From positions 41,601-105,600 of the IMG/VR virus record IMGVR_UViG_3300042691_008014: 64,000 bases of DNA; one strand, 5' to 3'. Position numbers and translations under genes: made by a program. Below, piece by piece: positions 1-38,044 of this stretch (position 1 is its first letter; every line of letters starts with the position of its first letter). Under the pieces are notes generated by a model. It was not told the origin of the DNA, did not search any database, and worked only from the letters and a program-made list of their open reading frames with translations. Origin of the DNA: a virus.

Positions 1-3000
1 ACGCCCATCTCTTTATTAATGCATCTCTTTCAAATTTCTCTAATTTAACTTTTGATTTATCTATAAAATTAGACCACCATGCTTGATGATATTCGGAAAC
101 ACCATCGTTGTTAGATAATTGAAATTCAGATTGTAATTTTTGTAATTTACTTAAATACTTACCTTGCTTTGAACTCAAATTTTCATTTTTAGGAAGTTGT
201 GTAACAGGAGGTCCTTGTATAGTATATTTAGATTGAACATCCGCATTCACTTGCTTAATCATCCCTGCCAATTTAGTTGCTGCAGATTGGTCAGCAGAAA
301 CTGCTTTACCACTTTCATCATAACAAGTTGTGTTATGAAATACCAATAAAGCCTGTCCGTAAGGAATAACATTTACAGAAGTTGGCCATATTACTTCCAA
401 ATTCATAAAACAATGTCCTTCATTAAATATTTTCTTTCGTTGTGGTTCCGAAAGAGATTGGATTGCCGCTGATAAATCTTTCATTGCAAAATTATATGCA
501 TCGGTTAATCCACCTCTACCACTAAATTTAGATGCAACATCTTCAATTCCCATTGCGTTTGCTCCACCATTTGCCAAATGTCCTTTGTTTCTTGCTGCAA
601 TCAATCTACCATTCTTCCAGCTAATTGCTAATGCCTGTCCATCGGTTTTTTCTCTTGTCAATTCTAACTCACCAGTCAATGCTCCTGTGATTATATTTTT
701 TAAATCACCAAAAGTTAAATCCATATCATCAAATGGGTGAGACATGTGACCGTATGCACCACCTTCAGTTAAAATCGTTTCATTTGTCTTTTTTTTTAAG
801 TTTCTTTTTTGAAGAACTAATTTATTTAATTCTGAAAATAAATCAGCAATATCTTTATCCAATTTTTTTTCATCAGCTGACATTGGGGATTCAATATCTA
901 CATTGGAATAAAGTTTTTTCTTTTTAGCAATTAAAGCATCTACTTTTTTAAGTAAATCATTCTTTGCCGTATCTAAATCTTTTATTATATCTTCCGTTGA
1001 TGATTCGTTTAGCTTAACCCCCGCATAATCTAATCTATATTCATAATACGCCTTTTTAATATCAGCAGGAATCTTTGAATTTTTAGTGAATATTTGGTCT
1101 ACCATCTTACGAGTATCATTTGATGATAGATTCCATTTTAACTTATTTTTATCTAATGTAAAGAAAGTATTTAAAGTAAAATCTATCTTACTCAACATTG
1201 GTTTCAAAATTTCATTTTCAAAAAATGAATCGTATTCCTTTCGCTGCTCTCTCTCTAAATAATTAAGAGCGAAGTTCCCATCATACAAATACGCTTCCAA
1301 TGCCTTTCCAACCATCCCCAACACATACTTTTTATCGTTAGGACCTAAATACTTTTCATCGGAATTACCAATCACATATGTGTACTGATTACCTACCAAG
1401 TCCTTTAATTTTACTTCGTTTAATTTACCGGTATCCGTTTTAAAGAATGGACCTCTTCTTACACTTCTAAAATCTAAACTCATTTCGTTTCCAAAAATCT
1501 CTTTCGGTGCAAGTACTTTTACTCTAATAGTTCCATTTTTGTTATCTACACCTATTGTTTCAAAATCAATTTCGGAGTATTTTTTACCTTTAAATCCTAA
1601 ATTTTTACCAGTAATAAACTTATGAACTTTACCACTACTAACTGCCTGTGCTTCACTTACAGGTTCATATCCATTATCTTCGGTATCTTTTATATTGGGT
1701 TGATGTCCTGGCTGTCTTTTTCTATTATCATCAAAATCTACAGTATCTAATTCAGCTGATTGCCCAATATCGTTCTTGTGATTGTTTGTAAAATCTTTTA
1801 CGGCTTGAGATATAGATTCACCACGTGGTATTCTAAATGTTGTTGCCTTCTTACCATTGATTGTAGGCATTCCGTGGTCATCTTTACCAATATCTTTAAC
1901 GGTAACTCTTTTATTTTTAAACTTACCCATTAAAACCTCATCACCCTTATCAACATCTACATTAATATCTTCTTTGACAAAATCAGTTTCAACATATTCT
2001 ACACTTGGTAAGTTTTTTATAGTATATTTTATAGTTCTTTCTTCCGCATCATCATCACCAAATATAGCATCTGCTTTTGGAAAATCGGTTTGAGTGTATC
2101 CACCATTCGCATACCAGGATTCAGGTCTATCGGAATCTAATTTTCTTTTTTTACCTTTTTTAATAAATGAACCATCTGGAACATCTGCGGTATTTGCAGT
2201 TCCAACATTACTAACCTCTGTGTAAATTTGTTTGTTGATTCTACCATATTCTCTCATAAGAATACCTGCTACGGCATGTGCTTGGTTTTCAACTGGCGAA
2301 CCATCTGCCCCATCTTTAACTTCGTTTCGTATAAACCCCAACTCATCTTGTTTTCTATGAACCATTTCATGTGCAAGTGTTCTCAATATATCCGCAGTTA
2401 ATCTACCTTCAGTTGCAACATATATTGATTTACTAATCGGGTCATATCCACCCAACGATGTTTTGGCTTCTGCAAATTTTCTACCACCAACTAAAGTTAT
2501 TTTTGGAGTTTCTTTTAATTTTAATCGTTTAGTTGCAAACTCTACAAAATTTTGAATAGATTGTTGTTTTGTTTCTGAAAGATTTTCTTTCATCAAATCC
2601 GAAGCATTAGCCATAGATTGATTTTTAGTTCCTTCTTTTTTATATCTAGCAATCGTTTGTATTAATTGTTCATCGGATAGTTTATAGTTTTGCATTATTT
2701 CTAATGTTTTTTCTATAAAGTTTGGTACAAATTTTTTCGTATCAAATCCTTCTTCTCCCTTTTTATTTTCAAATATACCAGCTACTCCCAATGCAATACC
2801 ACCTGCAGAAGCTTGTGCCGCATTAGCACCTAAAGCTTCAAACGCAGAGTGTTTTATTATGTCTTTAACTATGTAAGACCCCAAATGACCTCCACCAAAT
2901 TTAGCTGCTATTTTTGCTCCGGCTGCTTGTGCAATACCACTAGCACTAGCACCTTTTGATGCTGCAGATATGCCACCCATTAAACCACCTGTCGTTGCAA

Positions 3001-17998: not shown

Positions 17999-18778
17999 TT
18001 AAAAATAAATGTTCTTTTCTATGTAAAATTGTGGATAGTTTCCACTAAAACTAACATCCCATACTTTATATCTATTGTAATGGTTAAAATCACATAAAAA
18101 TGCAAAATTATTTCTATATGGATAATCGTAATTTAATTTTCGTAAATCATTAAAAACTATATGTGAATACTGTTTTTCATAATTATCAATAAAATCTTGA
18201 ATTTCTTCAATTTTTAATTTTTTGTTTAATACAAACGCCATTTCAAATTCAAAATCTCCAATATGTTGATGTTCCTCTGGTCCAATCATACTACCACATC
18301 CGAACCAATAGAAAGAATTTTCGTATTTCACTTTTTCACCATCTTCAAATTCAATAATTCCTACCAACTTTCCATTTTTATAGCATTTAATATTTCTTTC
18401 CAAAAAATGGTCACAAATCATAGCGTACTCATTGAATTCATTAGTTTCTTCTGGTAATAATCCGGTAAAAATTTGTTTTGAATACATTTCTGTTTTACCA
18501 TCTATTTCTTTTGAAAACCAATATGTAAATGCAATTGAAACAATTCCCAAATTATCTTTATAAGCAGAAATACCAGAATGCATTCCATTTCTGGCAATAG
18601 CAAATGATTCTTTATTTTGAGCTACAGTATCAGGAAATATTTTAAACTTTAAGAATAAAGAAAAATCTTCATCCATATGTTTATCAATTCTAGATGATAC
18701 GGAGTATCTACTTTCCGGCAAAACGAAAAATATATTATCTTTGTTTACTCTTAAACTCATATTTTTATTGTTGAACAA
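17999..18778 (-). CDS. stand-alone LamG (concanavalin A-like) protein
   Basis: A 259-residue protein that looks like a laminin-G/ConA-like beta sandwich with nothing else: FSLFLKFKIFPDT strand, an ERNIKCYKNGKLVG hairpin and IGDFEFEMAFVLNKKL followed by a final helix are the standard LamG order. The same sort of domain is nested in the three GT7-like proteins encoded just upstream. It has no signal peptide, so it may work in the cytoplasm with the transferases or be a virion protein. It overlaps the radical SAM gene upstream by 22 bases. Confidence 0.6.
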   Translation of the reverse strand: MFNNKNMSLRVNKDNIFFVLPESRYSVSSRIDKHMDEDFSLFLKFKIFPDTVAQNKESFAIARNGMHSGISAYKDNLGIVSIAFTYWFSKEIDGKTEMYSKQIFTGLLPEETNEFNEYAMICDHFLERNIKCYKNGKLVGIIEFEDGEKVKYENSFYWFGCGSMIGPEEHQHIGDFEFEMAFVLNKKLKIEEIQDFIDNYEKQYSHIVFNDLRKLNYDYPYRNNFAFLCDFNHYNRYKVWDVSFSGNYPQFYIEKNIYF

Positions 18779-20172
18779 AAGTTATAAAATTCTTCTAATT
18801 CAGGAAATGTTTTACAAAAATCAGTTCCTCTACGTTTATCGTGGTTTGAAAAATATTGATAAAAACTATATCTATTTTTCATTTGTTGAGTCGCATCCTG
18901 TGGAGAAATCATCCAATCATAAATTCTTTTTACTTTTTGAACCTCAACATCGGAGTAACCAATGTGTTTTGGGTCAAATGATGGAGCTGCGTAGTAAGTG
19001 ATTAATTTAGCCTGGTCAGTTATATATTTAGCATAATCAAATGGAAGTACTTGGACAGTTTGATGTAAAGGGTATCGTAGATATGATGAATCTAAAAACA
19101 CTGCAGAATTCCAATATCTATCAGTGGATGCGTATACATCTTTTAATGTGTAAATATTATGAATTAATTGTTCATAATTAAAAACACTTAACGCATTATA
19201 TGTCGACATGAATGTTATAATAGTTCTTGGGCATTTTGTAAGAATTTTATTTACATTATCCCAAAATTTATTAAATTCTAATCCAGTACGAATGTATTCT
19301 GCTTGCTCTCCCCATGTATCAACCGATGTAAATATGACAATTTCTTTTGCTCTACCTTCATCTTCTATTTTTTGTATCTTTTCGATTAATTTATCTATCA
19401 ACTTATCTGGAACTCCCAAATTAGAATTAATAGCCAGTTTCAATTCAGTATTTGGATTTGGATGTTCTATGATATAATCAAGTACTCCCCAAGTATCTTT
19501 ACTCATAAGAGGTTCTCCGCCTGTGATTCTAAATGTATGAAGGTCTCTATACAAATCAGGCCACCATTTCCAAAATGCTTCTACATATGGATTATGTTCT
19601 TTATTTGGAATTGGTAATTTATCTTCGTTTTTCATCCAATCAACGGAATTAAAATTATCCAAAGTTGGGTATGCACCATGCTTTTCAATTTCTTCCATCC
19701 ACGCCGAACTATACGCAGGACCACAATATGAACATTTGAAATTACACGCATTACTAAATGCAACTTCTACATATTTTGGATTAAAATCATCTCTCCAATC
19801 AGATTGAATAATGTCATTGATAAATGGATAAGACCAACTTTCACCAGATTTAAATATTCTATCCGAAAATCTATCCGAATTATCTTCTACATTCCAACAA
19901 TAATCACATTCAGAAGGTCTTGCTCCCTGTAACATTTCCTTTCTACGAAGTTTCTTATATCTCGTATTATGAAGTGCTGATGGGTTTCTAGCAATTTCAG
20001 TTTCTGAAATTTTATGTGTTTTGGGGTGGTGACATGAATGATTATGTCCACTTTGTAATTGTAGTGTAACTTGCGTCCATTTGGCAGCACACATACCAGG
20101 ACCAACCACATTTAACTCGTCTTTAACGCGTAAATAAATTGGATTTTCACTATAAGTTTTATCTTCTGCCAT
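18757..20172 (-). CDS. twitch-domain radical SAM protein
   Basis: A 471-residue radical SAM protein with CNFKCSYC (C143, C147, C150) and RITGGEPLMSKDTW as the SAM-binding element. The N-terminal part has GMCAAKWTQVTLQL, SCHHP and an ECDYCW pair (C28, C47, C89, C92). This arrangement is what phage genomes usually call a twitch-domain-containing radical SAM protein. Cofactor-binding extra cluster residues therefore precede the barrel. Substrate is unknown. Its leader, AAAATAAAAATATG, has no Shine-Dalgarno. Confidence 0.88.
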   Translation of the reverse strand: MAEDKTYSENPIYLRVKDELNVVGPGMCAAKWTQVTLQLQSGHNHSCHHPKTHKISETEIARNPSALHNTRYKKLRRKEMLQGARPSECDYCWNVEDNSDRFSDRIFKSGESWSYPFINDIIQSDWRDDFNPKYVEVAFSNACNFKCSYCGPAYSSAWMEEIEKHGAYPTLDNFNSVDWMKNEDKLPIPNKEHNPYVEAFWKWWPDLYRDLHTFRITGGEPLMSKDTWGVLDYIIEHPNPNTELKLAINSNLGVPDKLIDKLIEKIQKIEDEGRAKEIVIFTSVDTWGEQAEYIRTGLEFNKFWDNVNKILTKCPRTIITFMSTYNALSVFNYEQLIHNIYTLKDVYASTDRYWNSAVFLDSSYLRYPLHQTVQVLPFDYAKYITDQAKLITYYAAPSFDPKHIGYSDVEVQKVKRIYDWMISPQDATQQMKNRYSFYQYFSNHDKRRGTDFCKTFPELEEFYNFCSTIKI

Positions 20173-20176
20173 ATTT

Positions 20177-21643
20177 TTATTTTAAACAATGAACATTTAT
20201 TAATTTGTGTTTATCAAAAATGATTTTAGTACTGATATGTTTATACTTCATATTATTTATACCATCTTTTTTATAATCAATTTTACCTTGCTGCATTTCT
20301 AATACATATCTTCTTTCGTTTCTTGCAGTGGTTTCACCTTTAGCCCATTTTTCAATACCACCTTCTTTAATTAAACCTTCAGTTTCATGTGGTAAACAGA
20401 AAAATTTACCATCTCTTCTATGTGGTAGTATTACATGGGGTATTTGTATTTCTCTTTCTTCAATACCAACATTATACAATACACCATCGTTTAATTCGGC
20501 CTGGTCTATTACAAATTTATCATCAACTATTTCATCAAAGTTATAGTGTAATACCAAACTATCGGTTGAATACTGCTTATGTAATAAATTAACTTCTTCA
20601 CCAGTTAACGCTCTATCCCACATTTTAATATCAGCTATTTCACCTTTAAAAAATGCGTTTGGTTCAAATGGTTCAACCGTTGTCGTATGCCCTACATAAA
20701 ATGGTTCATTTCCATATCGTTTTAAGTTATACTGATATTCAAACGGTGATTGCGTACCCGTTCCATTTCTAGCATCACTTTCATTTCCATTTAGATAAAA
20801 ATGCATTTTCTTTTCCAAATCATCAATTACCATCGTAACCCACGTCCATTCTCCCTCATACCTTTTAAACCATTGGTAGATATGTTCTCTATGAGCATTC
20901 CATAACATACCAGTATATGCCCTACTATTGTTAAATGATAATCCCCAATCATAACCTGGTTTTCTGAATATAGGATATTCTACGAATTTTCTGTTTGAAT
21001 CACCAATTAACCAAATAGGGACTTTTTCTATTTGTTGGTCTGCCTTTACTAATACAGAAATTGTATGTGAATTGGATATTGCTATTCTATTTTTTTCAGA
21101 AGATGGTATTTTGATGTATGAACTTTTACCATCAAATACTGCTACATTTTTTACTTTAGCGAAATCAATAGTTTGTTTATTAACATATCCTTCCATCACA
21201 CATCTCCAAAACAAATCATCATCTTCCATGCCCCAATCCCAATAATCATTTGAATAACCATTGGTTGCTAAAACTTGCTCTTTTGTAAAAACAACCGCAC
21301 CACCAAAGTATTCCTGATATTTTAATTGGTAATCCGATTGTGAGATACGAACTGCAATGTGTTGTGGATTTTCCATAGGATATGAATAATCACAACTATC
21401 ATCTTCGGGTACCATATCAATATCATGCCAAACTATGTAATCACATCCATCATCAATTGCATGTTTTGCAGCAATGTTTTTCATCAATCCTCTATTGAAT
21501 AGATATTCATCACACTGATGTGCAATATAAATGGTGTGGTCAATTCCTTTCTTTGTTAAGAAATTAGTAACCCAAGGAACAAATTGATTCATATGTTCCT
21601 CTCTGTTTCTATATGGTACGCAGACCCCTAACTTATGCCCCAT
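20177..21643 (-). CDS. beta-1,4-galactosyltransferase-like (GT7) enzyme with nested LamG domain
   Basis: A 488-residue protein. Residues 9-145 carry all GT7 hallmarks in order: VPYRNR (9-14), FNRG (49-52), HDIDMVPEDD with the DxD site (73-82), FGGAVVFTKEQ (from 113) and WDWGMEDDDL (135-144). Then, where a normal enzyme has a short connection, a complete LamG domain is inserted (about 165-400: FDGKSSYIKIP, FYLNG, IADIKMWDRAL). The catalytic fold resumes with a C-terminal KDGINNMKY element equal to the DGLNSLTY of animal enzymes. GT7 transfers galactose or GalNAc from UDP-sugar to GlcNAc-like acceptors; LamG binds carbohydrate. Both activities are inferred from family. Two relatives follow in tandem upstream. 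Confidence 0.88.
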   Translation of the reverse strand: MGHKLGVCVPYRNREEHMNQFVPWVTNFLTKKGIDHTIYIAHQCDEYLFNRGLMKNIAAKHAIDDGCDYIVWHDIDMVPEDDSCDYSYPMENPQHIAVRISQSDYQLKYQEYFGGAVVFTKEQVLATNGYSNDYWDWGMEDDDLFWRCVMEGYVNKQTIDFAKVKNVAVFDGKSSYIKIPSSEKNRIAISNSHTISVLVKADQQIEKVPIWLIGDSNRKFVEYPIFRKPGYDWGLSFNNSRAYTGMLWNAHREHIYQWFKRYEGEWTWVTMVIDDLEKKMHFYLNGNESDARNGTGTQSPFEYQYNLKRYGNEPFYVGHTTTVEPFEPNAFFKGEIADIKMWDRALTGEEVNLLHKQYSTDSLVLHYNFDEIVDDKFVIDQAELNDGVLYNVGIEEREIQIPHVILPHRRDGKFFCLPHETEGLIKEGGIEKWAKGETTARNERRYVLEMQQGKIDYKKDGINNMKYKHISTKIIFDKHKLINVHCLK

Positions 21644-21644
21644 T

Positions 21645-23075
21645 TTACAATAATACTGATAGATGATGATAGTTATTCATTGATACATCATTTAATACCT
21701 GATATAAACAATTGTTTAAACCATCCTTATCTGTGTTATATAATTTAGTTTTAATTTGATTTAAAAATCTTAATTGGTTTATACGAGTTTCTCTATGAAC
21801 CCAGTTTTTCTCATTCCAACTATTTGTTTTATGAGATAATAATTTAAATAAAGATTTTCTTCTATACGGAACCGTCATTTCTCTACCTAATGATTCATGT
21901 GATTTTATGAAATGGCAATTATTAATTTCACCATTATTACCGTTAAAAGATAAATCTAATAGAGTATTTTCTTTGTAGAATTTAAAATCATAATATAATT
22001 TTAAATGTTCCGCCGATTTATACGCTCTAAAATTTTCTAATAAAGAATTTTCCAAAACATTATCTGCTAATATAGAAATTTCTTTATCTTTCAATTTACA
22101 ATCGTATATTGCAAATTCAGAAATCATTCCATAAAAAAAGTTTGGGTTAGAATCCCTTTCAGGTGAACCAACGCCTAAATAAAAGTATTCTTCATCTGAA
22201 TAATCCTTTGGAGCATTCTTTAGTTTTTCTGTACCTACTAATTCACCATCTTTATAAAAAGAAATTTCATTTTTTTTATAATCAAAAGTTAAACAAATTT
22301 GAGTAAAATGATTAGTTAGTATTTCTGAATTAATAGAAGTGCAATCATCGGTATCATCCCAAAAATCTACTTTATATCTTCTAAAAGAATTATAACTTAT
22401 ATTCGTATCGTATCCAGGTATTGAAAATACAGTATATTCATCATAATCATTATTTGGATTTGATATTATTTCATCAGGTTTAAATGTAATTATTATTGAT
22501 GTATCTTTTTCAAAATCTAATAAGTCTTTCTTTAGTATCCTGATGTAAGAATCATTTCCACTAAAAGATAACCCATATAATTTTTTGGTTTCATTTTTAC
22601 CAATAATTTTTGAATCCAATGGAATGCTCTTTTGATTAACCCTAAATAAAAGGTCATCATCTTCAAACCCCCATCCCCAATATAAATTAGAATATCCATT
22701 TACTCTTTCAAATGTATCAGAACTAAACATAGTTACACCTCCAAAATAATCATCAAATGATAAGTTTTTGGATTTATCATATTCTAATTCAAAATTGGTT
22801 GCAAGGTGCATGGGTAATTCAGAATAAGAATAATCAACCTCAATTGGTAGCATATCCACATCGTGAAATACAATATATCCACATCCTAATTCTTTTGCTT
22901 TGATATACCCAATATTTAATAACTTCCCTCTATTAAACGGTTTATCATCGGTCTGTTCAACTACGATAATCTCGTGTTTAATTTTTTTGGATTTTAAATA
23001 TGAAGACATAGTTTCACCGAATCGTGCTAAATGCGATTCTCTATCTCTGTATGGTACAATTATTCCTAACTTCAT
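21645..23075 (-). CDS. beta-1,4-galactosyltransferase-like (GT7) enzyme with nested LamG domain
   Basis: A 476-residue paralogue of the gene next to it, one base apart. It has VPYRDR (8-13), FNRG (47-50), HDVDMLP (71-77), FGGVTMF (from 111) and the most canonical acidic motif of the three, WGWGFEDDDL (133-142). A LamG domain follows at about 165-385 (GNDSYIRIL, FYKDGELVG, EFAIYDCKL). The C-terminus has KDGLNNCLYQVL, very close to the vertebrate DGLNSLTYQVL. The catalytic residues appear intact. A sugar transferase acting on the island's glycan is the natural reading. Confidence 0.9.
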   Translation of the reverse strand: MKLGIIVPYRDRESHLARFGETMSSYLKSKKIKHEIIVVEQTDDKPFNRGKLLNIGYIKAKELGCGYIVFHDVDMLPIEVDYSYSELPMHLATNFELEYDKSKNLSFDDYFGGVTMFSSDTFERVNGYSNLYWGWGFEDDDLLFRVNQKSIPLDSKIIGKNETKKLYGLSFSGNDSYIRILKKDLLDFEKDTSIIITFKPDEIISNPNNDYDEYTVFSIPGYDTNISYNSFRRYKVDFWDDTDDCTSINSEILTNHFTQICLTFDYKKNEISFYKDGELVGTEKLKNAPKDYSDEEYFYLGVGSPERDSNPNFFYGMISEFAIYDCKLKDKEISILADNVLENSLLENFRAYKSAEHLKLYYDFKFYKENTLLDLSFNGNNGEINNCHFIKSHESLGREMTVPYRRKSLFKLLSHKTNSWNEKNWVHRETRINQLRFLNQIKTKLYNTDKDGLNNCLYQVLNDVSMNNYHHLSVLL

Positions 23076-23080
23076 TTAGA

Positions 23081-23422
23081 TTATACTTTTTCTATATCTT
23101 TTTTAGGTCTTGCTCTACGAGGTGGCGGTAATTCTGCATCATTTTCAATTTGAGCAGGTTCGGTGGGAATACTTCCTTTAAAAGATGTTTCTGAACTAGA
23201 TGATGACCCATTTTCTTTTGCAATGTTGTAGAATTCATAAAGATAATACGCAACTCTATCACTCCATTCTGATTTGTTAATTTCTTCAAACCAAATAGTA
23301 AGTGCATCTAAAGAATTGGCAATTTTTTCCAATGCTTTAACTTTTCTAGTTTCCAATACTACCGATTCCAAATTTTGTTCAGGTGTAGTTGTTGTGTCAG
23401 ATTGTAACTTAACTTTCGCCAT
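23081..23422 (-). CDS. hypothetical protein (113 aa), helical with charged proline-rich tail
   Basis: A 113-residue protein placed between two GT7-LamG genes, six bases upstream of one and six downstream of the other. Residues 15-75 are predicted helical by eye (ETRKVKALEKIANSLDAL then WFEEINKSEW and a YLYEFYNIA stretch). The C-terminal 40 are serine-rich then PPPRRARPKK. No family recognised. Its position suggests it assists or tethers the transferases, but that is a guess. Confidence 0.6.
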   Translation of the reverse strand: MAKVKLQSDTTTTPEQNLESVVLETRKVKALEKIANSLDALTIWFEEINKSEWSDRVAYYLYEFYNIAKENGSSSSSETSFKGSIPTEPAQIENDAELPPPRRARPKKDIEKV

Positions 23423-23428
23423 TTATTT

Positions 23429-24886
23429 TTATATTTTAATTTGATGCTTATAAACTCCTGTTTTAATTTCTTCTGTTGATACTAAATCATATGATAATGT
23501 ATTTAATCCAAATTTATCAGTATCTAATATATCAGTTGCAATTTCATAAAAGAAAATACCTTCATTTTCTTCAAAAATATCATCTTTTACTTTCCAACTA
23601 TAATTTTGTAATTTAGTGAATTTTTTTGAATTTTCCAAGATTTGAAACCGTCCATTTGATTGTTCTGGCATATCAAATTCATAAGACAGGTTTAATTGTT
23701 CAGAATACAATTCCTGATGTAACCCAGTTGATACTATTCTTGGATTTGAAAATGTTTTAGAATCATCTACATAAAAATCTCCAAACTTTTTATCAAATGG
23801 TACATTTATAACTGCTTCAAAATTTGTAGTTATTGTATCATTTATTGTTTTATACCCATCGGTGTATAGTTTTAATATTTCGGATTCTGCCAATGGGTAA
23901 TCGAATAATAATAGGTTAGATATTTTGCCATTAAATGAATTTTTAAATGCCAAACTACCAATCCACAAATCTTTTCCTTTAAAGTCCATTAAATAATTTG
24001 GTAATCCATCCAGTGCTTGTACAAGTTTGCCATCAATGTATAGACCGGCTTTTTTCTTATCCATATCAACCTTTAATGACAGGTTTATCCATTGATTGAC
24101 ATGTGCTTTGTGTGAATACCACATTTGATGTAAACTCTTATTATCATCCCACAATTGAACTACAATTGCATCGTTTTTCATAATAAAAATTCCCATATCA
24201 TAACCTTGTTTCCCAATAATACACGCATCGTTTGATTGATTATCGTTAATGAAAACATTCATTGATATTGTAAATGAATCTTCAAAAATATAATCGGTTG
24301 TTTTGCTTGCTCTTATAAACACACAATTATTTTCATTTGAATCAAAAGGATATATTGTTTTTTTAATATATTTATTTACCTCTTTTACATCTGTTAAAAC
24401 ATGCGGTTTATATATATTTTTAGTAAAAAATCTCTTTGCAGATAATAATTTGTGTTTTTTTAATCTATATAAGAAATCTATCCAATGAAAAGAACCTCCC
24501 CAATAATCGTTACTGAACCCGTTTGCTTCGAAGAAATTTTCTTTTGTAATTTTAAAAGCTCCGCCTATCCAATGAGGATACGGTTTTAAATTTGCGGCTA
24601 AATGTGTTGGGTAGTATTCAAAATCATAATTACACGATTCTTGTCTTGGTAGAATATCAATATCGTGGAATATATAATAATCGGAACGATTTTGTGTTAT
24701 ATCCGCACCAATATTACACAGTTTTCCATAATTAAAATAAACATCCGCATCTATTTGTTCGATGAAATGTATTTCGTAATCTATTTTATCTTTTAAAAAG
24801 TATTCCATGTGACCCACAAAGGTATACAGGTCTTGTAAACGATTGGAGTACGGTACTATAATTGATAACTTTTTACTATTCGCCAT
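23429..24886 (-). CDS. GT7-like protein with nested LamG domain, degenerate catalytic motif
   Basis: A 485-residue third paralogue. Kept: VPYSNR (11-16), HDIDILP (74-80), GGAFKITKENF and NGFSNDYW; a LamG domain at about 165-395 (NNCVFIRAS, LYIDGKLVQ, ISNLLLFDYPL) and the C-terminal FGLNTLSY. Changed: FNRG is FNYG, and the WGWGxEDDD acidic motif is WGGSFHWIDF, so the donor/metal-binding acidic cluster is lost. It may be an inactive scaffold, an adaptor or an enzyme of altered specificity. The gene continues the tandem array and lies 14 bases downstream of the GT-A gene. Confidence 0.85.
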   Translation of the reverse strand: MANSKKLSIIVPYSNRLQDLYTFVGHMEYFLKDKIDYEIHFIEQIDADVYFNYGKLCNIGADITQNRSDYYIFHDIDILPRQESCNYDFEYYPTHLAANLKPYPHWIGGAFKITKENFFEANGFSNDYWGGSFHWIDFLYRLKKHKLLSAKRFFTKNIYKPHVLTDVKEVNKYIKKTIYPFDSNENNCVFIRASKTTDYIFEDSFTISMNVFINDNQSNDACIIGKQGYDMGIFIMKNDAIVVQLWDDNKSLHQMWYSHKAHVNQWINLSLKVDMDKKKAGLYIDGKLVQALDGLPNYLMDFKGKDLWIGSLAFKNSFNGKISNLLLFDYPLAESEILKLYTDGYKTINDTITTNFEAVINVPFDKKFGDFYVDDSKTFSNPRIVSTGLHQELYSEQLNLSYEFDMPEQSNGRFQILENSKKFTKLQNYSWKVKDDIFEENEGIFFYEIATDILDTDKFGLNTLSYDLVSTEEIKTGVYKHQIKI

Positions 24887-24900
24887 CTTAATAACCTATT

Positions 24901-25749
24901 TTATATAGATATAATTTTTTTAAATAATTGTTTCCATTTTGAGTATCCTGAATAATGATAAGTTGGTGATAATTCGAATCCAAATCTCACATCATCCAAT
25001 GGTAATTTAAATCTAAATTTTGCCAATTCTCTATACATTTTTCGATATTCTTCTGAATATGAGTAATCTTTATTTATGTTTGCAACTGCTCTAATTCTTT
25101 CTCCACAAGTACTATCCCATTTAAAATGATGTACTTGCACACTGCATTTGTTAATTGGTGCAATCAGTGGATGATTCCAACCTTGCCATTTCCAAGTAGT
25201 ATGTCCGTCTATTTTTGCATAATGCTGTCCGTTTGTAATTTCAACATACCCCTTTGCTATACAAATTTTATTAGGATTAGCACCACTTAACGGAAATCTA
25301 AAAAATCCTGCGTATGGAAACTTTTCAAATATGTCATCCGTATCTAATAATTCAACAAATTCACCATCCTCTCCAATTCTATCTATAAATCCACCTCTTA
25401 CCATTTCCCATCCATTTACATCACAATTTGATGTGATACTTCGTAATGAATCCGAATAGACATGGAACTCATCATCATCGGATATTACCCACCAATCGTT
25501 TGGATGAGTTGATTTTACTTCATTGTAAAGTCTTGTTACCTTTTCCCAATTATACTTCTCTTCAATTACCGTTTTTACAATTTTAGCATTTGGAAATTGA
25601 GATACTATGGTTTTAACTTCTGATAAATTAGATTGCTCTTCCCAATCATATACAACAATATACATTTCATCCACTTTATCTTTGTAGTGGTTTAACATAT
25701 GTTTTAATGTTGTTGTTCTAGAACCTGTTACCGTAACTAATCTAATCAT
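24901..25749 (-). CDS. GT-A-type glycosyltransferase-like protein
   Basis: A 282-residue protein opening with TVTGSRTTTLKHMLNHY and later VSDDDEFHVYSDSL, where DDDEF is the DxD-type metal/UDP-sugar site of GT-A enzymes. A HHFKWDSTCGERI segment follows. I cannot tell its GT family. It starts within the last codons of the methyltransferase gene upstream (4-base overlap). The minus-strand string TTATATCTATA at its C-terminal codons resembles the promoter box and could serve the GT7 gene downstream. Confidence 0.75.
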   Translation of the reverse strand: MIRLVTVTGSRTTTLKHMLNHYKDKVDEMYIVVYDWEEQSNLSEVKTIVSQFPNAKIVKTVIEEKYNWEKVTRLYNEVKSTHPNDWWVISDDDEFHVYSDSLRSITSNCDVNGWEMVRGGFIDRIGEDGEFVELLDTDDIFEKFPYAGFFRFPLSGANPNKICIAKGYVEITNGQHYAKIDGHTTWKWQGWNHPLIAPINKCSVQVHHFKWDSTCGERIRAVANINKDYSYSEEYRKMYRELAKFRFKLPLDDVRFGFELSPTYHYSGYSKWKQLFKKIISI

Positions 25750-26504
25750 TTTCTTTTAACTAATGTTAATCCAGTTGATGATGGTTTATTTTTTACTATT
25801 CCAAAATTGAATAAATCAAATGTTTCCCACTTTGGATTATCTTTAAGTTCTTTAGCAAATGTAATTGGTCCATGCCAATCATCAAAATCACCTCTATCTT
25901 TTACTTCGTTTGTAACAATGTAACTATCTGCATAATTAGGGTCCGTATCGTGGATAGAAATGATACCATTTGGAGAAAGTAACTGCGAATATAGTTCAAA
26001 ATCCTCTTTTACATTCTCATAACTATGACCAGCATCTATATGTAAATAATCTATCTGAATATCATTAAGAATAAAGTAATTATGAAAAGCTTCTTCTGTT
26101 GTTTTATTAATAATTCGTGGATGAAATGTTCTTCTGAAGAATGATTCTTCTCTAAACCAATTCACATGTCCACCAATGCCGTTCATAGCATCAACAACAT
26201 AAGTAACACCAATATCTCCCCAATTTAAATCAGAATTTCCTTCAAAAATGCCTTGTTTATGTAAATCGTAACGAGCCTGTGTCATTAATCTAGGTACAAA
26301 TCCTCCACCTGAACCTAAACATACACAAGTTTTTGCTCTCATATACTGAATAAGAGAATAGATTATTAAACCATCTCCTAAATGATTATCAGTTGCTCCA
26401 TGTGACCATCTATACGGAACTGGAACTTCTTCTTGCTCCTGATATTCGTTATATTCTAAATTGTTTGTTAGATAATTCTTTAAGTATTGTAAATCTTGTA
26501 GCAT
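25746..26504 (-). CDS. SAM-dependent methyltransferase (Methyltransf_24/cephalosporin-hydroxylase type)
   Basis: A 252-residue class I methyltransferase: CVCLGSGGGFVPRL is motif I, YVVDAMNG motif II, and DYLHIDAGHSYENVKEDF plus GIISIHDTDP are the family's signature strands. Length is normal. In surface-sugar clusters such enzymes O-methylate sugars; this is inference here. The 62-base gap upstream contains TATATTGTATTC on the minus strand, a possible weak promoter. Confidence 0.85.
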   Translation of the reverse strand: MLQDLQYLKNYLTNNLEYNEYQEQEEVPVPYRWSHGATDNHLGDGLIIYSLIQYMRAKTCVCLGSGGGFVPRLMTQARYDLHKQGIFEGNSDLNWGDIGVTYVVDAMNGIGGHVNWFREESFFRRTFHPRIINKTTEEAFHNYFILNDIQIDYLHIDAGHSYENVKEDFELYSQLLSPNGIISIHDTDPNYADSYIVTNEVKDRGDFDDWHGPITFAKELKDNPKWETFDLFNFGIVKNKPSSTGLTLVKRK

Positions 26505-31816: not shown

Positions 31817-34800
31817 TTACCTATTTAATAACTTTTTAATTGATATTATTTCATTTTTTAATTCAACAATTTCACTATTTTGTTCTTTTATTCCCTCAAT
31901 CAATAAAGCAATTATCTTTTCATAATCAACTCCTAAATACCCATCTCCTTTTTCTCTTACAACTTCTGGTAAAACTTCTTGAATTTCTTGTGCTAAAACC
32001 CCAACCTCTTGAATATTTTTTGGTTTGTTAGAAATACCGTTCCAATTAAAAGTATATCCTCCAATTTTTTTAATCTTATCCATTGGGTTTGAAATGGGAA
32101 TAATATTTTCTTTTAATCTTTTATCAGAACTAGATAGTGCGTACATATCACCAGTTGCTCTAATATCACCATTAATAGTTAATACCCCACTTGATATTGA
32201 GATTTCACCAACTGATAAATTTGTTATTGCACCATTTGTTGCACTTAATGTTGAGAATGTACTCAAACCTGTAAAGTTTGATGACCCTTTTACTGTCAGA
32301 AAATTGGTAGAAGATAAACTGGTATCAACTTTGAATTGGTTTGACCCATACAAAGATTGTAAACCTGCTTGGCAAATTTCAACACTTCTTGGAGCACTAC
32401 CTACCACTGCGTTAACACCACTAAAGTTTGGTGTTTTTAATGTTATACTTTCACCACTAACTAAATAATTTACACCAATTTGATGTTTTATTCTAACATC
32501 ATATGTTCCGCCTGAAGGGATTATTATGGATGCTCCACCAGTAGAAGTTATACTTCTTTCATAATTTGGATTATTATAAAAAACATATCCAGATGCAATT
32601 AACGCTTCCCCTACACCTACAACTTCCAAACTTATCCAATGATAGGTCTGAACGTAAGTAGCAGTAGATATTTGCATTAAGTACGAAGTACCAAGAGAGT
32701 TTGAAATCATTGCCGATATTTCCGCATCTGTCATAGAAACCTCTGTTCCAGCTGCAACAACACCCGTTGATACGGTATTTGAATTAAAAGTAGTACTCGC
32801 TTCAGCTTGTAAGTTTTGTCCAAATACAGGACCGTTTCTTGTTGTTGAACTTGTGCCACTAAAATCGGATAAAGCGGATGTAGAACTTGCTATTCTAAAT
32901 GAAGTATCATCCGTCATAATTACTGCGTTTCTAGACCCATCTTTTATGAAGAATCCTAAATCGGATGAATTTATTTCAATTGTACCAGTACTAGTTTTAC
33001 TTATCTTATCATTAGAAATTGACCAACCTCCAATTGTAGCACCTAATGCGGATAATTCACTTACTGTTATTTTATTAGCGGTTACCGCGCCAGCTGCTAT
33101 TGTGGTTGCGGTTACTGCGTCAGCTGCAATTTTACCTGCAATAATTGCACCAGCTGCTATTGTGGTTGCAGTTACTGCGTCAGCTGCAATTTTACCTGCA
33201 ACTATTGCATTTGCAACTATTTTACCAGAAGTAACTGCATCTGCTGCTATTTTACCTTCCGTTACTGCATTAGCCGCTAATTCTGCATTTGTTACGGTAC
33301 TTAAAGTTGCCAATCCACCTAATCCAGTAACTTGTCCAGTTGATACGGTGTTTTGAGTTGCTAATGTTCCAAGACCAGTAACTTGACCAGTTGTAACACT
33401 ATTTGCAGTTGCTAATGTTCCCAATCCAGTTACTACAGTATTTGGAACTGTACTACCAACACTTAAATTACCAACTATGTTTAGATTTGTTCCATCCCAA
33501 GTTAAAGAATTTGTTGCAGATTTTAAAGAAAGTTTGGAAACTCCACTATCTTGACCTAAAAATATACCAGTATTATTAAACCCTTGAGAGGATTGTCCAA
33601 TCGAAATATAAGGATTTGTAGAACCACCCGCTATAGTTATATTTGCCGAACTTAATGTGGTTGAAGTCGTACCAATGTTTATTGTATTTTGAACAAATGA
33701 ATCTTCAAATATACCTATTTTAGCTGCAACAAAGAAATCTTGTGCACCCAATGATATCCAACCCGTTTGTGATGATTGATGTGGTGCACCATCCGCGACG
33801 TTTCCTGTAGCTGAAAGATGTTGTCTAGTGGTTGCGTAGTAAGTATTATACGGTGGTGAGCCAGTTGAACTCCATAGAACAGTATCTCTTCTACCTGTCC
33901 CAGTTGTTAACCCATCTGAAAATTGGTATGTTCTACCACTTGTCCAAACTCCAGTATGAACTACACCAGGTCCAGTTTGGCCATTGGCACCATTTGCACC
34001 ATTTGCTCCCGTTGCTCCCGTTGCTCCCGTTGCTCCGGTATTACCGATTCCACTTACTCCAACTTCAAAATCAATAGTTCTGCCAGTAAATGCAGTACCT
34101 TCAGAGTTTCTGTAAGAAATAGTTATTACACCACTTGTACCACTAATACTAGTTGGAGTGTTTGGGGTGATTGTACCATTGCCATTATTTGTAGCGTTTG
34201 TGACACCAGTTATATTAAAAGTATTTGCTCCACTTGTATTGTATGTATAATTTGACCCACCTTCGTTTACTACAACGGTTACATTACTAGGTGTCCCTAT
34301 ACCAACTAACGAACCACTAACTACGGTTTGTGATTGTGGATTTGCAGAAATGTTTACAACGGGTGCAGAACTTCTTACTCTAGAAATCGTAGCAGTTACA
34401 TTCTTTGTACCTGAAACACCTTCACTATCGGTGAAATTGACAGGAATTGTTACTGTTCCACTATCGGATGTCATCGAAGATGCATTACTTGAAAACACTA
34501 TTGTATTAGAAGAAACACTACCCGCTAATCCATTTGTATAAGTAGGTGTTCCTAATGATGTAAATCTACTTATACCACCTTCTAATGCAGTTACAGTTAG
34601 GGTTTGTGGTGTAGCTGAACCACTACCACGAGAATTTGATTGGATTGATTGTGCAGTTGGTGAAACTGAAACTTCCACATTTGGTACTCCTCTCTTACTT
34701 TTTGAATAGGTTACCACCTTTGTTACATCAGTTGTATCTCCTGCTCCATCTTTATATCTTACTAATAACGTTAAAGAACCACTATCGGCAGTTAAAGTAG

Positions 34801-37057
34801 TAATACCATAAGTTGCATCATCAGGTGTTGAATCGTTTGCAATACAATTCACAGCAGTTGCAGAAATTACATCAAATCTATTATTTGTTGATAATCCTTC
34901 CTCTCTTGTAATATCTTCTCCACCAACTTTAACACTTACCGAACCACTTGTTGCTGCAAATGAAGCACTTGCTACAAATCCAGTTGATAATGCTGGTAAT
35001 GTTGCGTTCTCATTTGTAAGATTTACCGATAATCCATCTAATATTTTTACAGGAGTTACTTTTATAGCATCTGAAAATTGATTACCAAATTGGTCTGAAC
35101 CCGAAATGAAGTATGTAGTTTCGCCTGTTAAAAATGGATAAGATGCACCCGATAATGTGTAGGTATCTACTCCGTTTGTCGCATTTGTATCTACAAATGT
35201 TAACGGTGGTTTACCACTACCCGAATTTACGGTCAATGGAGTTGTTGCCGATGCTAAATTCTTACGTTTAGCTTCGATTGTTATTATTTGACCTACTGGG
35301 TTTAAAGATAAATCAGTTGCTTTATAAATGAATTGGTTTGTATTAGATGTTACAAATAATCCAGGTGCATTTTCACCATCTTCAAATCTGTATACAGTTT
35401 CAAATTGTTCCAATCCCTCACAAGATGCAGTATATACAATTGAACCAACTAATACTGATGATATACTACCACTAAAATTTGCAATAGTTAGTGTTGCACC
35501 CGCATCACTTACATTTGTTAATGTTCCAGGATAAGTTCCTCCGTATGATGATGGGTCTATGTAATTTCCTAAAGTGTCAAACGCAGACCTACCGTATGTA
35601 ACAGAACCTGTTAAATTTGATTTTGAAACCTTAAATCCCAATTGTTGAAAAGCAGGATTACCAAATGAACCACTAGAAAATCTAAATGCAGTTCTATCCG
35701 AATCAAATGTTAATAATTTAGTGGTTATTCCTGCAGTTCCACCTGTAAAATTTGCACTTTGTGTTACCGATACTGGAACAAAATTATTGTTCACATCGTA
35801 AAATTCAAATTTAAAATTATATGTTTCATTACCAATAACTGTAGGCATTGTTGTAATAAACGAAATCTCATCTGGTGAAAATGCGGTATCTTCGGAAAGT
35901 CTTAAACTTATATTTCCAACATGCCATTCTCCTTGTGATTGAGAAAAATATAAAGAACCACTTTCAAAATCAGAATCTACTTTAAAAGGAACTACTGTAT
36001 CTAATAAATTTTTTGTAGGAGTTATTCCATTTAATGTAGTAATTAAAACATCACCCCCATCGGACCCACTTATGTATATTCCTAAATTACTTGCAGTAGA
36101 TGATGAATAGAACGCATCCAAATTTAACTCGTAAGTATTTGATGCTTTTATATTCAATGATTGTGAATAAGTTAATAATCCACTTCCATTCAATTTCAAT
36201 CCACCCTCAACTCTACTAGATGTTAATTCAGTGGTTAATGAACCAGTGTTCCAAAATAAAGGCAATACTTCGGATGTAAATGTACCAGTGTTACCTATAA
36301 CACTTCCACTTAATTGTGTAGTTGTTAATAATTCTTTTGATTCTACTAATATATCTTGTATTAAATTAAAATCAGAAATATCTCCTTCAGAAGTTCTAAA
36401 TACTTTTACTCTTTTTACATCACCCGCGAATGTTTCTAAATTTGAAAGTTTTATATCAGCAAATGATTGATTTACTCCAGAATCAACTTTTGAACCACTT
36501 TCTATTCTGTATATTGGGGATAGTATTTCGTTAATAGTGGCAGTTGGTCTTTTATAAAAACGAATTTTGGTAGTATTTGCTAATGTAGGATTAACATTAA
36601 CAGTTCTTTGCCACTTTACATTGTAAGTACCCTGCCAATCAATTGGTATAGGTGTTAATAACCCGTTGCCATCATAGTATGAACTTAATTCACCTAGTAT
36701 TGTAATTGTACATGGACCATACGCGGTTGTATCTGGATAAACATATACTGCTACAACTTTTGATACTCCTTCGTAGTATTCTGTAACAAATGTTTCACCA
36801 TCTATGGAAGAGGATACTATACCTTCTCCAGGTTCGTGATATATAGTATTTCCCGCAGCATCTTTAATTTCAATTTTAACTAAAGTATCGGCTACCAATT
36901 CTTTTGAACCTGCTATTAAAAATGCGTTTTTACCACCAGTAAATGCATCAGGTATTTCTGTTACATTGAAGTAAGTACTGTTTGGAGCACTATCTACTAC
37001 GAATGTATTATACTTGTCTAAATTTTCAGCAAAAAGCGTTTTCTTTATTACGGCCAT
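31817..37057 (-). CDS. giant tail fibre with collagen-like repeat and S74 intramolecular chaperone
   Basis: A 1746-residue fibre. The first ~1000 residues are Ser/Thr/Gly-rich, beta-sheet-like repeats with Ig-like strand patterns. A collagen-like stretch of GAT/GAN triplets lies at about residues 1003-1030, and an AADAVTATTIAAGAI-type helical repeat at about 1253-1333. The C-terminus is the Peptidase_S74 endosialidase chaperone: SSDKRLKENI near residue 1643 and then VGVLAQEIQEVLPEVV and a closing coiled coil (IKEQNSEIVELKNEII). That chaperone normally self-cleaves after trimer folding. The box at 37074 precedes its ATG. Confidence 0.92.
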   Translation of the reverse strand: MAVIKKTLFAENLDKYNTFVVDSAPNSTYFNVTEIPDAFTGGKNAFLIAGSKELVADTLVKIEIKDAAGNTIYHEPGEGIVSSSIDGETFVTEYYEGVSKVVAVYVYPDTTAYGPCTITILGELSSYYDGNGLLTPIPIDWQGTYNVKWQRTVNVNPTLANTTKIRFYKRPTATINEILSPIYRIESGSKVDSGVNQSFADIKLSNLETFAGDVKRVKVFRTSEGDISDFNLIQDILVESKELLTTTQLSGSVIGNTGTFTSEVLPLFWNTGSLTTELTSSRVEGGLKLNGSGLLTYSQSLNIKASNTYELNLDAFYSSSTASNLGIYISGSDGGDVLITTLNGITPTKNLLDTVVPFKVDSDFESGSLYFSQSQGEWHVGNISLRLSEDTAFSPDEISFITTMPTVIGNETYNFKFEFYDVNNNFVPVSVTQSANFTGGTAGITTKLLTFDSDRTAFRFSSGSFGNPAFQQLGFKVSKSNLTGSVTYGRSAFDTLGNYIDPSSYGGTYPGTLTNVSDAGATLTIANFSGSISSVLVGSIVYTASCEGLEQFETVYRFEDGENAPGLFVTSNTNQFIYKATDLSLNPVGQIITIEAKRKNLASATTPLTVNSGSGKPPLTFVDTNATNGVDTYTLSGASYPFLTGETTYFISGSDQFGNQFSDAIKVTPVKILDGLSVNLTNENATLPALSTGFVASASFAATSGSVSVKVGGEDITREEGLSTNNRFDVISATAVNCIANDSTPDDATYGITTLTADSGSLTLLVRYKDGAGDTTDVTKVVTYSKSKRGVPNVEVSVSPTAQSIQSNSRGSGSATPQTLTVTALEGGISRFTSLGTPTYTNGLAGSVSSNTIVFSSNASSMTSDSGTVTIPVNFTDSEGVSGTKNVTATISRVRSSAPVVNISANPQSQTVVSGSLVGIGTPSNVTVVVNEGGSNYTYNTSGANTFNITGVTNATNNGNGTITPNTPTSISGTSGVITISYRNSEGTAFTGRTIDFEVGVSGIGNTGATGATGATGANGANGANGQTGPGVVHTGVWTSGRTYQFSDGLTTGTGRRDTVLWSSTGSPPYNTYYATTRQHLSATGNVADGAPHQSSQTGWISLGAQDFFVAAKIGIFEDSFVQNTINIGTTSTTLSSANITIAGGSTNPYISIGQSSQGFNNTGIFLGQDSGVSKLSLKSATNSLTWDGTNLNIVGNLSVGSTVPNTVVTGLGTLATANSVTTGQVTGLGTLATQNTVSTGQVTGLGGLATLSTVTNAELAANAVTEGKIAADAVTSGKIVANAIVAGKIAADAVTATTIAAGAIIAGKIAADAVTATTIAAGAVTANKITVSELSALGATIGGWSISNDKISKTSTGTIEINSSDLGFFIKDGSRNAVIMTDDTSFRIASSTSALSDFSGTSSTTRNGPVFGQNLQAEASTTFNSNTVSTGVVAAGTEVSMTDAEISAMISNSLGTSYLMQISTATYVQTYHWISLEVVGVGEALIASGYVFYNNPNYERSITSTGGASIIIPSGGTYDVRIKHQIGVNYLVSGESITLKTPNFSGVNAVVGSAPRSVEICQAGLQSLYGSNQFKVDTSLSSTNFLTVKGSSNFTGLSTFSTLSATNGAITNLSVGEISISSGVLTINGDIRATGDMYALSSSDKRLKENIIPISNPMDKIKKIGGYTFNWNGISNKPKNIQEVGVLAQEIQEVLPEVVREKGDGYLGVDYEKIIALLIEGIKEQNSEIVELKNEIISIKKLLNR
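33060..33300 (-). repeat. coding repeat: Ala-rich xVTATTIAAGxI units in the tail fibre
   Basis: About six near-repeats of a 30-33 base unit (for example GTTACTGCGTCAGCTGC on the plus strand) encode repeated A-x-A-V-T-x-x-x-I-A-A-x-A-I units. They are in frame with the fibre and imperfect, so they are a protein repeat, not a CRISPR. Confidence 0.8.
33968..34050 (-). repeat. collagen-like GAT/GAN triplet repeat in the tail fibre
   Basis: Repeated GxY triplets (GATGATGATGANGANGANG, then QTGPG) encoded by tandem 9-base units (GCTCCCGTT on the plus strand). Collagen-like triplets in phage fibres form trimeric shafts. Few prolines are present. Confidence 0.85.
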
Positions 37058-37334: not shown

Positions 37335-38044
37335 TCCTCGTGTGAGTAGAATGATACTATATTATATTTAATATCATTCTTTACTTTTTCAACTTCATGG
37401 AATAAATTTTTATCAGAATCTAATACTACAAAATTAGGAAAAATTGGATTTACTTTAATATCATTTCCATTTAAATCATGTAATATCAAATGCCCACCGT
37501 TTGATTCACCCCATTCATTATTTAAAAAATACAAAAATACACATATTCTGTTGTTAGGTTGTCCATCATCGTGTAATTTTATTTCGCAACCTTCATTGTA
37601 AAATTGCAGTTTTGTATTTTCAGTAAATCTACCAAACGATTTTTCAGGATAGTATTTTTTTACAAAGTTTTTTTGAAAATTTCTTAATACTTCATTGTTT
37701 ATTTTTCCATTTATTTCTGAATTCATAGAGGTACCAAATACCCAAGTTGGATAAAATCCACATTCTTCAATTTTTTTCAATTGATATTGATGTGCTTTAT
37801 TATAAACATAATCGGCAGTATTTAAATCTTTATCATTTTTTAAATACCCATCATACACCAATTCTTCCATATATGATTGGTCGTTGTATTTAAACCAATA
37901 ATCATATCTAGAATGTCTTACAAAATTTGTATTATCTATATAATCTTTTATTTGTTTAAACCCATCTAAATCGATTAGTTCGGAATAATCTTCCAACTTA
38001 CCGTAAATGTATCCACTATTTCTGTAATTTTCTATACTTTCCAT
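37331..38044 (-). CDS. 2-oxoglutarate/Fe(II) oxygenase (prolyl-4-hydroxylase-like)
   Basis: A 237-residue protein whose C-terminal half is a 2OG/Fe(II) double-stranded beta helix: KLHDDG supplies the H-x-D iron ligands (H158, D160), CVFLYFLNNEWGESNGGHLILHD is the core of the family, NLFHEV gives the distal histidine H216, and K226 in KYNIVSF stands where an arginine usually binds 2OG. It resembles the prolyl-4-hydroxylase group common in T4-like marine phages. It starts on the last base of the gp47-gp46 fusion gene. Substrate unknown; the collagen-like fibre gene is the next minus-strand gene. Confidence 0.85.
   Translation of the reverse strand: MESIENYRNSGYIYGKLEDYSELIDLDGFKQIKDYIDNTNFVRHSRYDYWFKYNDQSYMEELVYDGYLKNDKDLNTADYVYNKAHQYQLKKIEECGFYPTWVFGTSMNSEINGKINNEVLRNFQKNFVKKYYPEKSFGRFTENTKLQFYNEGCEIKLHDDGQPNNRICVFLYFLNNEWGESNGGHLILHDLNGNDIKVNPIFPNFVVLDSDKNLFHEVEKVKNDIKYNIVSFYSHED
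37348..37380 (+). terminator. possible AT-rich terminator or stem after the plus-strand gene
   Basis: A nine-base perfect inverted repeat (AGAATGATA at 37348-37356 with TATCATTCT at 37372-37380) with a 15-base loop begins 14 bases past the plus-strand stop, followed by TTACTTTTT. It lies inside the convergent oxygenase coding end. The stem is AT-rich, so it is only a possible terminator. Confidence 0.3.

Follow-up and report, generated by a model that had tools for sequence, protein, structure and literature searches.

Three tandem GT7-type proteins with a LamG domain nested inside the catalytic fold in large uncultured aquatic phages

Introduction

What would a LamG domain do inside the catalytic fold of a glycosyltransferase, and is it really inside? 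This question is raised by three neighbouring genes, P1, P2 and P3, of the virus record IMGVR_UViG_3300042691_008014. Positions 41601-105600 of this 105.6-kb IMG/VR record were analysed; this whole stretch of 64,000 nucleotides is called the window, and all positions below are in window numbering. A preliminary description, made from the sequence alone, had placed here three tandem proteins of glycosyltransferase family 7 (GT7, the family of the animal B4GALT enzymes) in which LamG interrupts the catalytic domain, and had seen in them a duplicated, diverging phage transferase family that reads its acceptor through the inserted domain. The three proteins are present as three minus-strand open reading frames (ORFs), with Pfam matches to both GT7 profiles and PDB matches to B4GALT enzymes. 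It is confirmed, by structural models for P2 and P3 and by sequence for P1, that each is a GT7 fold of the GT-A type split by a complete LamG/pentraxin-like beta sandwich. P1 and P2 are predicted to be active enzymes, and P3 is a probable pseudoenzyme.

Domain architecture of P1, P2 and P3

According to the ORF list, the transcription order from 24886 to 20177 is P3, an ORF of 113 amino acids (aa) that is absent from the preliminary description, P2 and P1. P1, P2 and P3 are also found together at 100% protein identity on contigs of 94 kb and 202 kb. The genes and their parts are as follows.

20177..21643, minus strand: P1, 488 aa, GT7 with nested LamG, predicted active from Pfam, PDB sequence match and conserved residues
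21164..21643, minus strand: P1 GT-A N-terminal part, residues 1-160, with VPYRNR, FNRG, HDID, EYFGG and YWDWGMEDDD
20438..21151, minus strand: P1 inserted LamG, about residues 165-402, limits approximate (Pfam Laminin_G_3 at 171-352; the LamG profile match at 175-416 is numbered from the upstream stop)
20180..20437, minus strand: P1 GT-A C-terminal part, about residues 403-488, with H419 and DGINNMKY
21645..23075, minus strand: P2, 476 aa, GT7 with nested LamG, predicted active (Pfam, PDB match, AlphaFold)
22617..23075, minus strand: P2 GT-A N-terminal part, residues 1-153, with D72xD74, Y110, W135, E138 and D139
21879..22589, minus strand: P2 inserted LamG, about residues 163-399, entry strand 154-172 and exit strand 388-402 (from the model)
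21648..21878, minus strand: P2 GT-A C-terminal part, residues 400-476, with H415 and DGLNNCLY
23429..24886, minus strand: P3, 485 aa, GT7 fold with nested LamG, Glu-Asp pair and metal-type His gone, probable pseudoenzyme
24437..24886, minus strand: P3 GT-A N-terminal part, residues 1-150, HDID retained, HWID in place of EDDD
23681..24361, minus strand: P3 inserted LamG, about residues 176-402 (from the model)
23432..23680, minus strand: P3 GT-A C-terminal part, about residues 403-485, with FGLNTLSY (from the model)

The Pfam order is alike in the three proteins, namely Glyco_transf_7N (7N), Glyco_transf_7C (7C) and Laminin_G_3, with E-values of 7e-19, 2e-18 and 1e-13 in P1, 1e-19, 4e-17 and 2e-13 in P2, and 4e-14, 9e-5 and 8e-12 in P3, respectively. 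P1 and P2 are above the cut-off for both GT7 profiles, while P3 is above it for 7N and, at 22.5 bits, under the 23-bit cut-off for 7C. The 7C profile has 78 positions and is covered only to 59-60 in P1 and P2 and to 43 in P3, an early end that would be expected if the fold is interrupted. The best PDB sequence matches are B4GALT7 for P2 (1.2e-26), B4GALT1 for P1 (3.2e-32) and B4GALT1 for the P3-family profile (8.3e-44), and all of them end ahead of the LamG. Profile searches thus reach GT7, and the motif list of the preliminary description was correct as well, with WGWG/WDWG-EDDD in two of the three proteins and the GLN/GIN-xxx-Y tail in all three; the tails DGLNNCLY (P2), DGINNMKY (P1) and FGLNTLSY (P3) are similar to the B4GALT tail DGLNSLTY.

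The AlphaFold model of P2, built with 59 aligned sequences, has a predicted local distance difference test score (pLDDT) of 93.7 and a predicted template modelling score (pTM) of 0.87, and that of P3 (19 sequences) has a pLDDT of 89.1 and a pTM of 0.80. Bovine B4GALT1 (1tvy) aligns to the P2 model over the span 1..476 with a Z score of 26.1 and a root-mean-square deviation of 2.3 across 212 residues, and human B4GALT7 (4irq) aligns to the P3 model over the span 1..485 with a Z score of 26.4 across 209 residues. Since only about 160 residues lie ahead of the LamG in P2, the 212 aligned residues must include some behind it. In both models the LamG is a separate jelly roll (Z about 22), and the stretches on either side of it come together in a single B4GALT fold; a C-terminal tail left outside the GT-A core, which would have refuted nesting, was not seen. 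These alignments across both GT parts bear out nesting as first described and rule out a merely appended LamG. The models cover P2 and P3; for P1, nesting rests on the Pfam order and on homology to P2 (32% identity). The long entry and exit strands of the P2 LamG, as read from the secondary structure of the model, suggest a rigid mount.

Both halves of this architecture have well-known counterparts. Animal B4GALT1 and B4GALT7 have the GT-A fold in common with them, with Z scores of 22-26 across about 190-212 residues, and likewise D-x-D, WGWGxED(D/E)(D/E) and the tail motif. However, the crystallised animal catalytic domains of about 230-280 residues have no insert, whereas the phage proteins carry the LamG and have no N-terminal stem, VPYxxR starting at residue 7, 9 or 11. 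Animal B4GALT Golgi enzymes have an N-terminal transmembrane stem. The P2 LamG on its own matches the LamG of PAPP-A (166-402, Z 22.0), 4dqa (164-398, Z 21.7) and pentraxins (Z 17-19). In general, Laminin_G_3/pentraxin jelly rolls such as the PAPP-A LamG, 4dqa, CRP and PTX3 have the same fold as the insert, with Z scores of 17-23; among the listed matches to the insert none is titled a glycosyltransferase, and 4dqa is titled a putative carbohydrate binding protein.

Insertion point and LamG-free relatives

GT7 relatives without LamG, which the preliminary description had not mentioned, occur in SAR11 (L101-L107 in our numbering of loci), Azospirillum (L096) and other proteobacteria including Alphaproteobacteria, and also on other viral contigs. 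The bacterial ones are about 240-330 aa long with the same core and tail but no LamG, nine aligned proteins being 29-35% identical to P2, and one match per genome was found in the two genomes searched. Behind WGWGFEDxD they have a helix, followed by R(K/D)GxFxxLxH and the DGL/DGI tail. Their profile has 249 positions, of which 7-231 can be aligned to B4GALT7 and B4GALT1, a range that takes in the tail. The insertion site of the phage proteins lies between the helix after WGWGxED and the histidine-bearing segment, some 10-17 residues ahead of an invariant histidine; H415 in P2 and H419 in P1 stand about 15-17 residues past the LamG end.

In the B4GALT1 rows of the alignment, counted from the printed alignment, the bacterial histidine falls on the metal-ligand segment, for which we take M344 and H347 to be the ligands in bovine B4GALT1. 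By this correspondence the insert borders on the segment from which B4GALT1 forms its flexible acceptor lid. No other long insert behind the GT7 core was found among the 31 complete LamG-free ORFs. One LamG-free core, that of the 683-aa ORF at L121 2708-4756, lies near the end of its protein, after about 430 residues.

Catalytic residues and the fate of P3

All 50 P2 and all 37 P1 sequences have the D-x-D, the Glu-Asp pair, the Trp that precedes Gly-x-Glu and the His behind the LamG, while the later acidic positions vary slightly in P2 (44/50 and 49/50). The Tyr of YFGG is also invariant in both sets. Its counterpart in B4GALT1, Y289, governs donor choice, and on this analogy UDP-galactose may serve as a first guess for the donor.

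P3 is different. In the window it has WGGSFHWID in place of WGWGxEDDD, and N419 stands at the His position, so both the Glu-Asp pair and the histidine expected of a GT7 enzyme are gone. Unlike B4GALT1 and B4GALT7, P3 thus lacks catalytic residues, and on the loss of the Glu-Asp pair and the metal-type histidine P3 in this lineage is probably not a transferase. The first description had called all three proteins transferases; this remains the prediction for P1 and P2, which keep the catalytic residues, and probably fails for P3. Across 19 P3 sequences the His is present in 9 and the Asp in 11, and the homologue of L060 retains most motifs. The homologues at L016 6213-7700 and L017 4309-5796 have in addition lost D-x-D (HSPYFIP), a further catalytic loss.

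Nevertheless, the P3 ORF is intact in three close relatives, and its ratio of nonsynonymous to synonymous substitution rates (dN/dS) is 0.10-0.12, compared with 0.05-0.13 for P1 and P2; taken per domain against these three relatives, the values for P1-P3 are 0.03-0.26. P3 looks like a retained protein with altered function, not a decaying gene.

Distribution of the nested family

A scan of IMG/VR with the P2-family profile yielded 473 stretches that code for relatives with or without nesting, of which 80 were kept; 351 loci were analysed overall, with L081-L091 left out of the counts as repeats of earlier contigs. These loci hold 345 distinct GT7-core ORFs, including 290 nested and 31 complete without LamG. 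The remainder comprises 18 LamG-bearing and 5 LamG-free ORFs that are truncated where their locus ends and one ORF with 11 residues past the LamG. The last is a P1-type ORF (L028 5441-6652), one of 291 complete LamG-bearing ORFs, and may reflect natural loss or a sequence error. At the other extreme, 527 residues follow the LamG match in at least one nested ORF, compared with a median of 81. A loose tail pattern is matched in 263 of the 290 nested ORFs. With the short-tailed L028 counted in, the 291 complete LamG-bearing ORFs form 234 clusters at 90% identity. Among 14 virus records, nine carry two nested copies and five carry three.

Among 84,980 bacterial and archaeal genomes, one scan found 17 relatives. 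Three are nested (L092-L094), and these lie on contigs of metagenome-assembled genomes, 9-23 kb long, near genes of phage modules; 12 are complete and LamG-free, one is cut by the contig end (L099) and one is weak (L108). Gp23, the T4-like capsid gene, is present in six of eight related records, and the closest isolates by the window baseplate wedge are Microcystis phage Mel-JY01 (42%) and Flavobacterium phages (39%). Among contigs of uncultured aquatic phages, the nested GT7-LamG family is common.

In the isolate collection INPHARED, protein searches with P2 (limit 1e-3) and with the L045 P2, the L060 P3 and the LamG-free L100 protein (limit 1e-2) gave no match, and P1 at a limit of 10 gave only two weak matches, both in the LamG region (E 0.07 and 0.3); the collection searched may omit records near the window. 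As controls, the baseplate wedge matched 19 records and the Nol-like carbamoyltransferase described below 141, which indicates that INPHARED works as a collection. PHROGs gave weak matches to P1-P3 (best 1.7e-4), among them a tail-terminator match to P2 at 310-389, which is LamG and exit strand. Among the 50 matches listed in a structural search of BFVD none has a TMq above 0.42, so none of them covers both domains well; those with names are LamG-like, GT7-like or uncharacterised, and many are unnamed. Similar to the phage proteins, the BFVD proteins of Mimivirus and Aureococcus virus are viral and galactosyltransferase-like, but they match about 160 P2 columns (TMq 0.28) with no nested LamG in the match. 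No earlier description of a GT7 with nested LamG was found in the literature searched, as judged by titles and abstract openings, and a passage on GT7 in PMC4202792 has no bearing on such nesting. GT7 and LamG are each known, and it is their nesting for which no earlier description was found.

Evolutionary history

A tree of the GT core without LamG was built from 19 of 37 P1 and 25 of 50 P2 sequences (every second row), all 19 P3 and 31 LamG-free sequences, with a root that was set, not inferred. A single change divides LamG-bearing from LamG-free proteins, with a support of 98 in the Shimodaira-Hasegawa-like approximate likelihood ratio test (SH-aLRT). P1 (99), P2 (90) and P3 (96) each form one group, with P2 and P3 as sisters (89), which agrees with the duplicated and diverging phage family first described. 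The sequences fit a history of two duplications and one LamG insertion, which probably happened once. In the tree of the LamG part, P1 and P2 groups have a support of 99 each and the P3 group 40, and placing the stand-alone LamG proteins needs two changes. Exchange of LamG between paralogues was also considered and left no sign, as the LamG tree keeps the P1 and P2 groups and, weakly, the P3 group.

Gene neighbourhood

The other genes of the window that bear on function are listed below; homologue counts refer to 50 representative loci and are lower bounds, some loci being short. The P3 query matched 50 of 50 loci through cross-hits to P1 and P2, and that count was not used.

17999..18778, minus strand: 259-aa protein, probable stand-alone LamG, beyond the radical SAM gene
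18757..20172, minus strand: twitch-domain radical SAM protein (NF033640, 2.9e-105), homologues in 47/50 loci
23081..23422, minus strand: 113-aa ORF between P2 and P3, homologues in 16/50 loci
24901..25749, minus strand: GT2-like protein (Glyco_tranf_2_4 at 22.1 bits, below the 27.5 cut-off), homologues in 49/50 loci
25746..26504, minus strand: Methyltransf_24 protein, homologues in 47/50 loci
31817-37057, minus strand: 1746-aa protein with a Peptidase_S74 chaperone domain at its end, probably a tail fibre
60300-61997, minus strand: Nol-like carbamoyltransferase (phrog_1601, 2.8e-125), about 35 kb from P3

The same cluster holds genes for epimerase/dehydratase-family proteins and for RmlC-like proteins (the latter below NCBI's cut-off), and further sugar genes. 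The radical SAM protein has no INPHARED match at 1e-10. In many loci a LamG-profile protein of about 220-280 aa lies beyond the radical SAM gene; the window protein at this place is below the LamG profile threshold, and its L009 homologue matches LamG at 36.5 bits and the window protein at 320 bits. The 52 LamG ORFs tallied as non-GT7 include the three GT7 genes of the window and six repeat contigs in L083-L091. The carbamoyltransferase occurs in seven of eight related records, and its INPHARED matches are mostly cyanophages. The 113-aa ORF has no NCBIfam match, and its tail is proline-rich and charged. Elsewhere in the window, a 1052-aa ORF at 38044-41202 (minus strand) matches two profiles, one SbcD-like at 5-337 and the other SbcC-like at 324-1051, possibly a natural fusion.

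Possible functions

With slightly better than even confidence, we favour the reading that P1 and P2 are active GT7 transferases in which the inserted LamG holds or orients the acceptor, and that P3 is a non-catalytic partner. The chemistry would be that of the family, i.e., inverting, dependent on metal and nucleoside diphosphate (NDP) sugar, and of the GT-A type. In what was probably a single event, the LamG/pentraxin-type jelly roll would have entered the fold between the helix that follows WGWGxEDDD and the histidine segment, and on its two long strands beside the part matching the B4GALT1 acceptor lid it would, by analogy, most likely bind or orient the acceptor. This acceptor would belong to the surface of the phage or the host and be either a glycan or a polymer that is glycosylated. 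After duplication of the gene, P3 would have kept fold and LamG while losing its catalytic residues, probably becoming an acceptor-binding partner, and the module would act within a phage sugar cluster together with the GT2-like protein, the methyltransferase, the radical SAM protein and sugar-nucleotide enzymes. What sequences and models show is the nesting, the site of insertion, the conserved catalytic positions, a tree that a single insertion would fit, the catalytic losses of P3 despite purifying selection, and the conserved neighbours; the activity of P1 and P2, the donor, the acceptor, the LamG ligand and the partnership of P3 are what we infer here.

A partial parallel exists in the LacdiNAc synthases B4GALNT3/4, which we take to be related to GT7. 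These likewise combine a glycosyltransferase with a putative glycan-binding module, PA14 in their case and LamG in the phage proteins, and in B4GALNT3 the PA14 domain is needed for activity and is modelled near the donor site, according to PMC11254600.

Several points weigh against this reading or the evidence behind it. The LamG fold alone is no proof of sugar binding, for PAPP-A and dimethylformamidase have the same fold. The LamG is less conserved (mean pairwise identity 0.37-0.41) than the GT N-terminal part (0.60-0.66 in P2/P1), though the GT C-terminal part is no better in P2 and P3 (0.37 and 0.36). The B4GALT7 rows are offset from H-x-H, so a metal role of the post-LamG histidine is only suggested by the B4GALT1 rows. 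Nested counts are biased upward, most queries having been nested proteins, and 27 of the 290 nested ORFs have no match to the loose tail pattern. Finally, the GT-core tree is a quick one, with a long-branch warning between the LamG-bearing and SAR11 sets.

Two other readings, which overlap with the favoured one on where the product lies, are rather unlikely. The LamG may dock the enzyme on a virion protein or complex, with fibres or capsid being glycosylated: PAPP-A, whose LamG gives the best PDB match of the insert, was deposited in protein complexes, as its titles indicate, and the gene of the 1746-aa S74-ended protein is found about 7 kb upstream and points the same way, although this fibre-like gene is not adjacent. 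Virion glycosylation has been reported for mycobacteriophages, as stated in PMC12619734. To a similarly limited degree we would credit an alteration of host surface polysaccharide (O-antigen or capsule), e.g., to block superinfection. The sugar-nucleotide-type enzymes of the cluster are consistent with such a role, but Gp23 in six of eight related records suggests lytic phages, whereas serotype-converting transferases are typically genes of temperate phages.

Glycosylation of phage DNA with hypermodified bases is improbable and is the least favoured acceptor reading, set aside on admittedly weak grounds. DNA glycosylation is known from T4-like phages, and the carbamoyltransferase is shared with seven of eight related records. 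However, that gene lies far from P3, and a lectin-like insert is not expected with a DNA acceptor. In addition, PF00303, the thymidylate synthase family that we take to include dCMP hydroxymethylase, is present in three of eight records and was not found in the other five, including the 202-kb record with identical P1-P3, in a search for a hydroxymethylated-base pathway limited to PF00303 and to records that may be fragments. Equally improbable is a structural or adhesive role with the GT7-LamG fold as a non-catalytic scaffold; P3, under purifying selection despite its lost catalytic residues, would fit it, but the D-x-D, Trp, Glu-Asp and His of P1 and P2 are preserved throughout. There is a negligible chance that the nesting is artificial and stems from misreading, assembly or fusion, for which only the short-tailed ORF of L028 would speak; for the family as a whole this is refuted by the 290 nested ORFs, all distinct, by low dN/dS and by the confident models for two of the paralogues.

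Conclusions

A further-reaching form of the favoured interpretation is tentative, and we consider it doubtful rather than likely: the embedded lectin-like domain beside the lid would make a GT7 catalytic domain an acceptor reader. Two active enzymes would work with a dead paralogue acting as scaffold or reader, and this set, coupled with a twitch radical SAM protein and a LamG protein that stands alone, would make a new glycan for the virion or the surface in large T4-like phages of aquatic habitats. Frequent as the family is on uncultured aquatic phage contigs, it was not found in INPHARED, the isolate collection searched. In the literature searched and to our knowledge, lectin-type modules of glycosyltransferases otherwise sit beside the catalytic domain. 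The LamG-free relatives mark the insertion point, so a clean deletion of the LamG is possible. With the LamG inside the GT-A core, beside the histidine/lid segment, acceptor reading and catalysis may be mechanically coupled in these proteins.

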